Assembly (NCBI GenBank): GCA_027483945.1
Contig: JAIXTM010000018.1
Span: 310,001 to 374,000, forward strand
DNA length: 64,000 nucleotides
From: Hyphomicrobiales bacterium
GTDB taxonomy: Bacteria; Pseudomonadota; Alphaproteobacteria; Rhizobiales; Beijerinckiaceae
Reading direction: 5' to 3'
Within the stretch, counting starts at the first letter, position 1. Each line of letters starts with the position of its first letter. Both the position numbers and the translations under genes were made by a program. The notes beneath the pieces were generated by a model. It was given only the letters and a program-made list of their open reading frames with translations, ran no database searches and was not told the origin of the DNA. Positions 35,336-39,056 of this stretch are shown piece by piece.

Positions 35336-35341
35336 ATGGAT

Positions 35342-36274
35342 ATGGCCGCGGGCACGAGCCGGCTCGATGAGACTGCCAGAGGCGTCTACGTCATCGCCGT
35401 CACGCCGTTCACCGACAGCGGCGAGCTCGACCTTGCGAGCACGGACCGGATGGTCGCCTTCTACGAGGAGCGCGGCGCGACGGGCCTCACGGTGCTCGGC
35501 ATCATGGGCGAGGCGCCAAAGCTGACGGCGGCCGAGTCGGCCGCCTTCGTGAAACGGGTCCTGAGCCGCGCGCGGGTGCCGGTGGTCGTCGGCGTCTCGG
35601 CGCCGGGCTTTGCCGCCATGCGCGAGCTCGCCGACGCGGTGATGGACATGGGCGCGGCCGGCGTGATGGTCGCCCCGCCCTCCAGCCTGCGCACGGACGA
35701 CCAGATCTATGCCTATTTCGAGGGCGTCGCCGAGACGCTGCGCGACACGCCGTTCGTGCTGCAGGATTATCCGCTGATCACCGGCGTCCAGATCGCGCCG
35801 TCCACGATCCTGCGCATCGTGAAGAACCTGCCGACCTGCGTGATGCTCAAGCATGAGGACTGGCCCGGGCTGAACAAGATCAGCGCCCTGCGCGCCGCCA
35901 GCGAGAATGGCGAGCGCCGCATTTCCATCCTGTGCGGCAATGGCGGGCTGTTCCTGCCGGAGGAGATGGGCCGCGGCGCCGACGGCGCCATGACGGGCTT
36001 CGCCTATCCGGAGATGATGGCGGGCGTCGTGGAGGCAGCTGCGCGCGGGGACGCGGAGCGCGCCCACGACATCTTCGACGCCTATCTGCCGCTCGCCCGC
36101 TACGAGCAGCAGCAGAATCTGGGGCTCCTGGTGCGCAAATACGTACTGGCCAAGCGCGGCGCCATCGGCTCGGCGGCGCTGCGCCGCCCCGCGGGCAAGC
36201 TCTCGGCCGGCGACGTCGCGGATGTGGAGCGGCTCATCGCGCGGCAGGACAAGCGACTGAAGGAGATCGGCTGA
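35342..36274 (+). CDS. Dihydrodipicolinate synthase family protein (DapA-like aldolase)
   Basis: A 310-residue class I aldolase-fold protein of the DapA/NanA superfamily. The Schiff-base Lys170 is in CVMLKHED and the conserved Tyr143 in LQDYPLI. The usual substrate loop reads LTVLGIMGEA instead of the GTTGE of true DapA, and TGVQIAPSTI replaces the typical contacts. It is therefore unlikely to be the lysine-pathway enzyme; a sugar-acid or keto-acid lyase is more probable. The start with GGGAGG seven bases upstream is chosen over one six bases earlier. The stop overlaps the SDR start (TGATG). Confidence 0.85.
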   Translation: MAAGTSRLDETARGVYVIAVTPFTDSGELDLASTDRMVAFYEERGATGLTVLGIMGEAPKLTAAESAAFVKRVLSRARVPVVVGVSAPGFAAMRELADAVMDMGAAGVMVAPPSSLRTDDQIYAYFEGVAETLRDTPFVLQDYPLITGVQIAPSTILRIVKNLPTCVMLKHEDWPGLNKISALRAASENGERRISILCGNGGLFLPEEMGRGADGAMTGFAYPEMMAGVVEAAARGDAERAHDIFDAYLPLARYEQQQNLGLLVRKYVLAKRGAIGSAALRRPAGKLSAGDVADVERLIARQDKRLKEIG

Positions 36275-37056
36275 TGGACCTCGGACTGACCGGAAAGCGC
36301 GCCCTCGTCCTGGGCGCCAGCAAGGGCCTCGGCGGGGCCATCGCCCAGGGACTCGCCCGCGAAGGCGCGACCGTGATCGGCGCGGCGCGCAACGTCGCCG
36401 CCATCGAGGGCTGGGCGGCGGAGCTCGGCGCCGCCGGCCGGCGCGTCACGGCGATGCCGCTCGACCTGTTCGACCTGGCTTCGGTGGAAGCGCTCATCGC
36501 GGCGGTGGTCGCGGAGGGGGGCGTCGACATCCTGGTCAACAATTCCGGCGGCCCGCCCCCAGCGGAGGCGCAGGAGGCCAAGCGCTCCGACTGGCTCGTC
36601 CAGTTCGAGGCCATGGCGGCGAACCTCTTCCATATCACGCAGGCTCTGCTGCCGCCGATGATCGAGCGCGGCCACGGCCGGATCATCACGGTCGCCTCCT
36701 CCGGCATCGAGCAGCCGATCCCGCGGCTCGCCTTGTCGAACGGCATCCGCTCCGCGGTGCGCGGCTGGTCGAAGACGCTGGCTTCGGAGGTCGCGCGCCA
36801 CGGCATCACCGTGAACATGATCCTGCCGGGCCGCATCCAGACCGAGCGCGTGGAACAGCTGGACAGGGCCAATTCGGAACGCTCCGGCCAGAGCGTGGAC
36901 GCGGTGAAGCAGGCCGCGCTCGCCACGATCCCCGCCGGTCGCTACGGCACGGCGGAGGAGTTCGCCAACGTCGCGGTGTTCCTGGCCAGCGACCGCGCGT
37001 CCTACGTCAACGGCGCGACGATCCGGGTCGACGGCGGGGCGACCCGCTCGGTGTGA
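36274..37056 (+). CDS. Short-chain dehydrogenase-like protein lacking YxxxK
   Basis: A 260-residue SDR-fold protein. The cofactor motif is GASKGLGG (residues 14-21), NNSGG is at 89-93, and Ser142/143 are in VASSGIEQP. The position of the catalytic Tyr and Lys is Ser155 and Arg159 (LALSNGIRSAV), so the usual proton relay is missing. This matches the BKR-like SDR subgroup with an incomplete active site. It is translationally coupled to the DapA-like gene, suggesting both act on one substrate class. Whether it is an active oxidoreductase is unclear. Confidence 0.88.
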   Translation: MDLGLTGKRALVLGASKGLGGAIAQGLAREGATVIGAARNVAAIEGWAAELGAAGRRVTAMPLDLFDLASVEALIAAVVAEGGVDILVNNSGGPPPAEAQEAKRSDWLVQFEAMAANLFHITQALLPPMIERGHGRIITVASSGIEQPIPRLALSNGIRSAVRGWSKTLASEVARHGITVNMILPGRIQTERVEQLDRANSERSGQSVDAVKQAALATIPAGRYGTAEEFANVAVFLASDRASYVNGATIRVDGGATRSV

Positions 37057-37127: not shown

Positions 37128-37202
37128 GCGGGTGTAGTTCAGAGGTAGAACGTCAGCTTCCCAAGCTGAATGTCGTGGGTTCGATTCCCATCGCCCGCTC
37201 CA
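37128..37202 (+). tRNA. tRNA-Gly (anticodon CCC)
   Basis: A complete cloverleaf: acceptor GCGGGTG pairs with CGCCCGC, the D-arm contains AGTTCAGAGGTAGAAC, and the anticodon stem TCAGC/GCTGA encloses the loop TTCCCAA (anticodon CCC). The T-arm contains GGTTCGATTCC. The discriminator base is T and CCA is encoded at 37200-37202. It reads GGG glycine codons. The neighbourhood shows no integrase or attachment-site duplication. Confidence 0.95.
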
Positions 37203-37218: not shown

Positions 37219-37246
37219 GGCGCCCTTTCGGGCGCCGCTGCGTTTT
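37219..37246 (+). terminator. Terminator after tRNA-Gly
   Basis: A seven-pair perfect hairpin GGCGCCC-TTTC-GGGCGCC is followed ten bases later by TTTT. It lies 16 bases past the tRNA and just before the convergent gene at 37246, so it could serve both directions. Confidence 0.6.
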
Positions 37247-37869
37247 CAGCCCGGCTTGCGGTAGACGACGAGCGACTTGTACGGCTCTTCCGCGATGAGG
37301 CCCTTGCGGGCGGCGAGCTCAGCGACGACGCCTTCGGCCGTCGGCCAGGCGAAGGAGCCGGGATAGAACAGGACGCGCCCGCCGGGTTTCAGTCTGTCCA
37401 CCAGCATCTCGCCGACTTCGAGATCGGTCAGGGCGTTGTAGAGGTCGTTCTTCTCGGTGCGGAACTCGCAGAGGTGGAACAGCGTCGCGAGGTCGAATTC
37501 CGGGAGCATCCGGGCGTCGAGCTGGTAGATGTCGCCGAAGAACACCTTGTAGAGGCGCCCCACTTCCGGCCGGTCGATGGTGAGCTTGACGTAGGTATCG
37601 TATTCGGCGGGCGAGGCCGTGATGCCGTAGACGGCATTGTTGCTGCCGACCTCCGCGATGCGCAGGCCCAGATGGTGGTGGCCGCCGGTGCCGAAATGGA
37701 AGACCGACGCGTCGCGGACGCCCTTGTCCTCCATGTAGTCGGTGAAATGGACGTCGCAGGGGCAGCGGTCCACCTCCAGCGCCCAGTAGGCGTCCCAGAA
37801 ATGCATGCCGCCTTCGCGGGTCTTGATGCCGCTCTCGGCGGCGATATTCCATCTCGATACGTCGCTCAT
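37246..37869 (-). CDS. Unknown protein with Rossmann/methyltransferase-like layout
   Basis: A 207-residue soluble protein with no confident family. It has VFHFGTGGHHHLGLRIAEVG, which occupies the place of a SAM-binding loop (strand, G-x-G, then helix), followed by NAVYGITASPAEYDTYV, an acidic strand (VFFGDIYQLDA), FDLATLFHLCEF and MLVDRLKPGGRVLFYPGSF, in class I methyltransferase order. The triple His in the loop is unusual. It sits 26 bases after the ABC-type membrane gene on the same strand, so a shared transcript is likely. Methyltransferase activity is only inferred. Confidence 0.6.
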   Translation of the reverse strand: MSDVSRWNIAAESGIKTREGGMHFWDAYWALEVDRCPCDVHFTDYMEDKGVRDASVFHFGTGGHHHLGLRIAEVGSNNAVYGITASPAEYDTYVKLTIDRPEVGRLYKVFFGDIYQLDARMLPEFDLATLFHLCEFRTEKNDLYNALTDLEVGEMLVDRLKPGGRVLFYPGSFAWPTAEGVVAELAARKGLIAEEPYKSLVVYRKPG

Positions 37870-37895: not shown

Positions 37896-39056
37896 CTAGA
37901 GGGAGGGCACGCCCGGCGCCAGCACGGGCGCGGGGCCGAGGGCGGGCATGGCGGGCTCCGCCTGTGTTTGCGGCTCAGGCGCCGGATCGAGCGTGTCGAT
38001 CGCGTCCGCCAGTTCCACGACGCGGCGCACCGAGGCATAGCATTCCGCGATGCGCCGGTAATTGTCCACGATCCACGAGATCGCGACCTGCACCTGCACG
38101 AAGGCCGCCACGATCTGCACGACCTCGCCGAGCGACAATTCCTCGGCGAGGAACTTGGGCGCGGCGAGCAGGAGCGGCACGACCGGGATCAGCGCGCCGG
38201 ACCCGTTCGTGATCCAGGTGATGCGCGCATTCTGCCGGACGACGGCGAGCCAGCGGCGCACGACCCGGTCATAGGTCTCGCCGAGCCCGGCCTGCTCGTC
38301 GCGGGCGCGGAAGCCGTCGTCGATGGCGGCGGCCTCGGTGCGCACGCGCGTCAGGGCGAAGCGGAGCGAGGCCTCAGCCTCGTTGCGGGCGCCGACGCGC
38401 CGCACCAGCGGCCTGCCCACATGCATCATCAGCAGCGAGGCGCAGGCGCCATAGGCGATGGCGGCGAGAACCATATAGGCCGGGATCGTCACGCCGCCGG
38501 CATGGAGCGAGCCGCCGATCGACCAGAGCACGCCCAGGAAGGTCGCCGCGCCGAGCAGCGCGGAGAGCAGGCCGATGGCGAAATCGACGATGGGCTCCAG
38601 CGCCATGCGCACGTCGTCGGCGATACGGTATTCGGGATTGGCCGGCTCGATGCCGCGCTCGGCGAGGCGCCGGTAGCCGCCGGTGGCGAACCAGCGCTCC
38701 ACCAGGGCCCGCGTCACCCATTCGCGCCAGCGCACCTGCAGCGTCTCGCGCGTCCACACGATGCCGACACCGACGGCTGCGACGAGCAGGAACAGCACGC
38801 CGAACAGCGCCACAAGCTCCAGCAGGACCTTGCCCTCGCGGTCCTCGAGCGCGTTGAAGAACCAGCGGTTCCAGGTGTTGACGGTGAACTGGATGGCGAC
38901 GTTCGCCAGGAGGCAGAAGGCGAGGCCGAAGGTCAGGAGCCAGGCGCGGCGGCTGGAATTGGCCCAGAATCCGGTGGTGAGATGCCAGAACCGGCGCACC
39001 ACGCGCAGGTCATAGGCATGCGCCGCATCATCACCTTCAGCATGGTGCCCTTGCAC
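37896..39056 (-). CDS. ABC exporter membrane domain (SbmA/BacA/YddA-like) without ATPase
   Basis: A 386-residue membrane protein matching the ABC_membrane_2/SbmA-BacA-like domain: VNTWNRWFFNALEDREG, VRWREWVTRALVERWFATGGY, NPEYRIADDVRM and VVQIVAAFVQVQVAISWIVDNYRRIAE. YddA-type relatives continue into a nucleotide-binding domain. Here the protein ends in a Pro-rich tail (PAPEPQTQAEPAMPALG) and no ATPase is encoded in any frame beside it. It may work like SbmA/BacA, driven by proton gradient, or be a degenerate exporter. Such proteins take up peptides and some antibiotics. Confidence 0.82.
   Translation of the reverse strand: MQGHHAEGDDAAHAYDLRVVRRFWHLTTGFWANSSRRAWLLTFGLAFCLLANVAIQFTVNTWNRWFFNALEDREGKVLLELVALFGVLFLLVAAVGVGIVWTRETLQVRWREWVTRALVERWFATGGYRRLAERGIEPANPEYRIADDVRMALEPIVDFAIGLLSALLGAATFLGVLWSIGGSLHAGGVTIPAYMVLAAIAYGACASLLMMHVGRPLVRRVGARNEAEASLRFALTRVRTEAAAIDDGFRARDEQAGLGETYDRVVRRWLAVVRQNARITWITNGSGALIPVVPLLLAAPKFLAEELSLGEVVQIVAAFVQVQVAISWIVDNYRRIAECYASVRRVVELADAIDTLDPAPEPQTQAEPAMPALGPAPVLAPGVPSL

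Follow-up and report, generated by a model that had tools for sequence, protein, structure and literature searches.

Two overlapping genes in a 64,000-nucleotide stretch of the genome of a Hyphomicrobiales bacterium (the window, meaning the whole of the DNA that was analyzed) encode a DHDPS/NAL-family Schiff-base lyase and an SDR that lacks the YxxxK motif. Our hypothesis, adopted tentatively and at somewhat less than even confidence, is that they form a catabolic module that treats a 2-oxo acid in two steps: a Schiff-base dehydratase comes first, and an SDR that reduces a C=C bond follows. We infer both reactions, their order, the direction of the cofactor and the substrate from the coupling of the two genes, their conservation, key residues, folds and neighbors. 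A search of the open-access literature found no report on the chemistry of such a lyase-SDR pair.

The lyase gene, on the forward strand at 35342-36274 (PF00701, 96 bits; a further in-frame ATG lies at 35336), runs into the SDR gene at 36274-37056 of the same strand (product P0002; PF13561, 158 bits), the two having in common a single A of the stop/start overlap TGATG (36272-36276), just as an earlier note on this DNA had read it; taken as a whole, the observation made in that note is confirmed in part. Lyase residues are numbered here from the ATG at 35336 (P0001), whereas the Lys170 and Tyr143 of the earlier note were counted from 35342. Upstream of the pair lies a SCO1/SenC gene on the opposite strand, and about 70 bp downstream a tRNA-Gly(CCC) gene (37128-37202). 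Directly behind this tRNA gene, the collinear blocks of the sister species are about 2.7 kb further apart, and the spot may be an insertion site. Two reverse-strand ORFs follow, one of 207 aa (37246-37869) with no Pfam or NCBIfam match at E 0.001, and one of 386 aa that is SbmA/BacA-like (37896-39056), its sole Pfam matches being the ABC membrane region and SbmA_BacA. No pathway genes were recognized adjoining the window pair, no gene near it falls within any neighbor cluster common to three or more genes, a sigma-70 promoter scan gave no match, and Rfam returned the tRNA only.

The residue signature of the lyase looks like that of a Schiff-base dehydratase and not that of an aldolase. Three residues are invariant among the 173 aligned lyases (the window included; identical sequences were entered once, and L157, which shares its contig with L144, was excluded): Gln143 (codon 35762-35764), which occupies the position of DapA Tyr133; the Schiff-base Lys172 (35849-35851), which the earlier note had correctly picked out as Lys170; and Glu174 (35855-35857). 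The region around Lys172 is taken from the profile alignment because the pairwise alignment with DapA is poor there. The claim that the enzyme is an aldolase keeping its catalytic tyrosine is not supported: the residue named, Tyr145 in P0001 (35768-35770), stands two residues past the DapA Tyr133 position, and the tyrosine that precedes the Schiff-base lysine in class I aldolases is absent, with Gln143 in its place. A catalytic role for Tyr145 is unlikely, since the 93 lyases compared differ at this position (43 Tyr, 47 Phe, 3 His). The changed substrate loop that had been noticed is real and was understated, as Thr44/Thr45 of DapA are replaced by Ile56/Met57 and Arg138 by Ile148 (pairwise alignment). 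From DapA the enzyme differs by the replacement of the Thr pair, Tyr133 and Arg138 and by a TIGR00674 score of 104.9 bits, under the cut-off of 206.15; another gene of the genome, with TTGE, matches DHDPS far better, at 303 bits. The fold, the Schiff-base lysine and the many aldolases in the DHDPS/NAL family do speak for the original view, in which a class I retro-aldolase whose proton relay has been altered passes its aldehyde product on to the SDR; with the catalytic Tyr turned into an invariant Gln, the Thr pair and the Arg lost and a dehydratase Glu gained, we consider this unlikely.

The nearest solved structure to the lyase is 3dz1 (E 1.5e-99), followed by L-2-keto-3-deoxyarabonate (L-KDA) dehydratase, and L-KDA dehydratases are also the closest enzymes of known function (E 2e-26 and 8e-26; by profile 3e-38 and 4e-38). 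A review (PMC9795676) describes the A. brasilense enzyme as performing dehydration without aldol cleavage, with Lys171 forming the Schiff base, Gln143 replacing the aldolase Tyr, Glu173 acting as the base for the C3 proton and Glu200 as the base for the C5 proton, and it states that no other DHDPS/NAL enzyme conserves Glu173. With residues counted along the profile alignment, Gln143, Lys171 and Glu173 of the L-KDA dehydratase structure 3fkk lie opposite Gln143, Lys172 and Glu174 of the window lyase, and the alignment with Glu173 makes Glu174 the candidate C3 base. Opposite Glu199/Glu200 of L-KDA dehydratase, by contrast, are Asn202 and Gly203 (codons 35939-35944), Asn being present in 173 of 173 lyases and Gly in 168. 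The first half of the dehydratase chemistry thus looks to be kept and the second half not, and because of the Asn/Gly replacement the full reaction of L-KDA dehydratase is not to be assumed for the lyase. Relatives of the lyase were found in Alpha- and Betaproteobacteria.

In the SDR, Met114 (36613-36615), Ser142 (36697-36699), Ser155 (36736-36741, together with the following Asn156) and Arg159 (36748-36750) stand at the N-S-Y-K positions of FabG from the same genome, and the YxxxK position reads S155-N-G-I-R159. The earlier note was right to place Ser155 and Arg159 where Tyr and Lys should be, and right that the cofactor motif and the serine are kept, the glycine motif and Ser142 both being present; the replacement of the fourth classical residue, Asn, by Met114 had gone unmentioned, and no other Tyr/Lys pair for the active site emerges from the alignment. 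Every one of 43 SDRs (the window included), and every one of 28 from a set of named GTDB loci (the named set), has S142, S155, N156, R159 and K167; Met114 is found in all 43 and in 27 of the 28, the exception having Leu. Invariant Lys167 is no substitute for the missing Lys, because it is aligned with a lysine of ordinary FabG. The Rossmann fold and the glycine motif are present (model pLDDT 91.9; Z 34.6 to 5vps). Position 17 of the glycine motif is Arg or Lys in 31 of the 43 SDRs, and the titles of three solved relatives (5va8, 5vps and 5idy) include NADP(H); the two observations point to NADP(H) as the probable cofactor and hence to reduction as the probable direction.

The replaced residues bear on two further alternatives. 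SDR 4-dehydrogenases of 2-keto-3-deoxy acids are classical YxxxK enzymes. If the lyase were the same kind of dehydratase and the SDR a carbonyl reductase or dehydrogenase using Ser/Arg, its substrate being for example a C4 alcohol if it acts ahead of the lyase or a semialdehyde if it follows, the pair would find a parallel in such 4-dehydrogenases, which are known (PMC6336799) and of which one, 8y11, is among the structure matches (Z 32.3); in addition, a Devosia locus (L158) has the order IlvD/EDD, Amidohydro_2, lyase, SDR, with a dehydratase and an Amidohydro_2 protein ahead of the pair. We regard this as possible and rather improbable, given that Tyr and Lys, and Asn as well, are replaced in every SDR examined. 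The SDR might also be no enzyme at all, being instead a cofactor-binding or structural partner of the lyase, as three of its four classical catalytic residues are replaced and the gene overlap suggests equal expression. We give this reading only a slim chance, because so specific a set as S142, S155, N156 and R159 is invariant in both samples and because some SDR genes have no lyase within 6 kb of them, for example beside RraA.

The solved chains nearest to the SDR (5va8, 5vps, 5idx and 2z1n) carry general names only, and the profile search scored 1o5i, annotated as FabG, at 202.2 bits, AerF at 192.5, L-sorbose reductase at 181.1, the best other FabG at 176.2 and YwfH at 157.7, below many FabGs. 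Among solved relatives with a name beyond plain SDR or dehydrogenase, AerF (identified by structure titles) is thus second, after 1o5i; structure comparison gave Z 34.0 for AerF, 33.5 for YwfH and 32.9 for FabG, with no clear separation. Structure titles describe AerF as crystallized with NADPH and 4-hydroxyphenylpyruvate, a 2-oxo acid. We know of no reaction for the Tyr-less SxxxR SDRs, of which structures have been solved. The SDR of PMC12810213 is a classical YxxxK enzyme.

The pairing of the two genes is more than chance. In a survey of 297 genomes of the order (presence being E <= 1e-60), in which counts are lower bounds because the best 7 or 8 candidates per genome were scored in most genomes, the lyase is present in at least 94 genomes and the SDR in at least 71; at least 56 of the 94 lyase genomes have both, as against an SDR in at least 15 of the 203 without lyase (odds ratio 18.5, kinship ignored). 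Lyase and SDR lie within 8 kb of one another in at least 36 of the 297 genomes, the SDR follows the lyase on the same strand by 60 bp or less at no fewer than 24 places, and a lyase is linked to the SDR at no fewer than 38 of its 81 places. The named set, 80 loci chosen by the lyase, includes an SDR in 28, of which 25 have it within 60 bp downstream; 52 are without an SDR nearby (3 of these have fewer than 800 bases downstream), and on the lyase tree (FastTree) the presence of the SDR changes at least 29 times. Where the earlier note had considered that the pairing might be unique to this genome, the genome search found that it recurs across genera with an invariant motif. In the sister species, represented by one other genome of the genus, the pair lies in a collinear region, the lyase being 89% and the SDR 92% identical, and Nei-Gojobori dN/dS is 0.078/0.526 = 0.15 for the lyase and 0.054/0.567 = 0.095 for the SDR. 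Purifying selection on the altered SDR is therefore at least as strong as that on the lyase, which speaks against decay; the active-site change is a fixed one.

The same genome carries a second lyase, 80% identical to that of the window. It sits in a row of genes resembling an operon, together with a D-hydantoinase (TIGR02033 at 517.5 bits, cut-off 393.25) and a racemase of the Asp/Glu/hydantoin type (PF01177, 196.5 bits). No SDR is present in this row, next to which lie a GntR/FCD regulator and an oligopeptide-type ABC transporter; the genome's best carbamoylase-type gene is on another contig. The arrangement around the second lyase is the same in the sister species (L145), and no hydantoinase or hydantoin racemase was found in the 18 kb around the sister-species pair (L144). 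On the FastTree phylogeny, the sister copy falls closest to the window lyase; next come the copies of this genus that are linked to hydantoinases, along with a cluster from Microvirga in which the lyase and SDR are accompanied by a Zn-dependent hydrolase, a racemase and an FAD-binding oxidoreductase, strong support being limited to the sister grouping. We tentatively read the window pair as a diverged and relocated relative of hydantoinase-racemase-lyase-SDR clusters. Some variable positions of the lyase track the gene context: at position 56, hydantoinase-like loci mostly have Met (48 of 50), IlvD/EDD loci Gln (12 of 19) and RraA loci Ile (20 of 22); the window and sister lyases have Ile56 and Tyr145, and because their own hydantoinase-linked copies have Met and Phe at these positions, the window copy may have changed its substrate.

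Neighbors within 3.5 kb were counted in the named set and in a sample of 80 loci from the order, two sets that overlap (L209/L046 and L220/L049). By raw counts in the named set, a hydantoinase-like amidohydrolase and/or racemase is found in 24 of 80 loci (12 with SDR), IlvD/EDD in 12 (9 with SDR) and RraA in 11 others (none with SDR), while 33 loci (7 with SDR) have none of these; in the order sample, the corresponding raw counts are 16 (8 with SDR), 7 (4), 10 (5) and 47 (17). The hydantoinase-like class stands for four amidohydrolase queries, of which only one is known to be over the D-hydantoinase cut-off, one is ErtD-like and two come from Labrenzia with no annotation beyond amidohydrolase family; the neighbor class termed DAO combines FAD oxidases of two unrelated families. 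As many as 193 of the 297 genomes of the order have a match to the D-hydantoinase model, which by itself is weak evidence. Use of pyrimidines was rejected as a reading, as among the best matches listed only those of G037 and G113 lie beside a listed lyase, and so was use of ergothioneine, the ErtD-like neighbor amidohydrolase (L114) falling under its curated cut-off (498 against 600 bits).

RraA lies about 0.8-1 kb behind the lyase (centre to centre) in 12 of the 80 named loci, none with SDR (p 0.006, kinship ignored); the loci with RraA at the usual place of the SDR are L186, L189, L195, L200, L204, L208, L215, L217, L219, L221, L227 and L230. RraA and SDR occur together in 5 loci of the order sample, and SDR-RraA pairs without a lyase in the stretch were seen in L130 and L131. 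Elsewhere, an SDR without lyase has a racemase, a dihydropyrimidinase and an FAD oxidoreductase in its vicinity, L130-L132 being lyase-free. Five further loci (L100, L109, L110, L117 and L121) have the lyase among PxpA/B/C-like (5-oxoprolinase) genes, all with a hydantoinase/carbamoylase-family amidase and the first four with an agmatinase-like gene in addition.

Where a racemase occurs, beside this genome's second lyase or in other genomes, it is a separate neighbor gene. Of the small catabolic or racemising pathway proposed in the earlier note, a conserved and coupled small-molecule pathway has held up, given the recurrent overlap, co-occurrence, purifying selection and catabolic neighbors elsewhere, racemases included; a racemising role for the pair itself has not. 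Racemases, and in some loci a DAO-type oxidase, also suggest reading the pair by its likeness to a deaminase that belongs to the DHDPS superfamily and whose pathway also includes an epimerase and a DAAO (PMC4113996); as the two neighbor racemases that were scanned are PF01177 and not proline racemases, we hold this to be quite improbable.

In the dehydratase-reductase module that we propose, Lys172 of the DapA-like enzyme would form a Schiff base with the C2 carbonyl of a 2-oxo acid, and Glu174, held by Gln143, would take the C3 proton, so that the C4 group, most likely OH, would leave by elimination and not by retro-aldol cleavage. The NADP(H)-type SDR, which resembles AerF and is without a Tyr proton donor, would then add hydride to the conjugated C=C of the 2-oxo-3-enoate to give a saturated 2-oxo acid, the net result of both steps being removal of oxygen from C4. 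Such a model would join two otherwise odd active sites in one series of steps. Several observations weigh against it: Asn/Gly in place of Glu199/Glu200, the 52 of 80 named loci that lack an SDR, the 29 or more changes in SDR presence on the lyase tree, RraA behind the lyase in 12 named loci, Z scores that set AerF and YwfH little apart from FabG, a profile score of YwfH under those of many FabGs, and AerF lacking counterparts of Ser142 and Arg159. The IlvD/EDD family makes 2-oxo-3-deoxyaldonates, which are 4-hydroxy-2-oxo acids, and for this reason the model fits the IlvD/EDD context; a hydantoin context alone is no predictor of a 4-hydroxy-2-oxo acid and leaves the source of the C4 hydroxyl unexplained. 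A bolder proposal, which we find conceivable and no more than about half as probable as not, is that a widespread dehydrate-then-reduce module deoxygenates C4 of 2-oxo acids, made up of an unrecognized second branch of Gln/Glu-type non-aldolase DHDPS enzymes and an SxxxR ene-reductase SDR, and serving hydantoin, sugar-acid and other routes, its variable residues close to the active-site motifs differing from one route to another.

All 12 of the lyase-bearing plasmid records examined name the lyase "dihydrodipicolinate synthase family protein", a label that, judged by the residues, points to the wrong chemistry. The Gln/Glu signature is now seen in a large second family beyond L-KDA dehydratase, and through the repeated pairing the Tyr-less SxxxR SDRs acquire a definite partner and, with it, a class of substrates that can be tested.

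Among known systems, DapA (4-hydroxy-tetrahydrodipicolinate synthase) has the fold and the Schiff-base Lys in common with the window lyase. L-KDA dehydratase (PDB 3fkk, 3fkr, 7c0c-7c0e) resembles it further in having Gln for Tyr and a Glu at Lys+2, at 28% identity by structure alignment; because Glu199/Glu200 are replaced, the window lyase is best regarded as a sister type and not as L-KDA dehydratase itself. Closer still is 3dz1 from Rhodopseudomonas palustris (Z 46.1 and 55% identity by structure comparison), which belongs to the same subfamily and has the same Gln/Lys/Glu; its name, "dihydrodipicolinate synthase", is an annotation at odds with residues that carry the putative dehydratase signature, and a literature search under that PDB code found no paper. 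On the SDR side, 5va8, 5vps, 5idx/5idy and 2z1n are 39-40% identical to the window SDR (structure alignment) and like it have Ser at the Tyr position, Asn after that Ser and Arg at the Lys position (SNxxR). AerF (6jh7, 6jha, 6jhb) likewise has the SDR fold without YxxxK, with Ser in place of the Tyr and Asn in place of the Lys (S..N, as opposed to S..R in the window SDR); unlike the window SDR, it has no Ser at the Ser142 position and no equivalent of Arg159. YwfH/BacG (3u49, 3u4c), which reduces a conjugated C=C in a 2-oxo acid by hydride transfer, shares the SDR fold and is titled an NADPH-dependent reductase of bacilysin synthesis, and is thus biosynthetic rather than catabolic.
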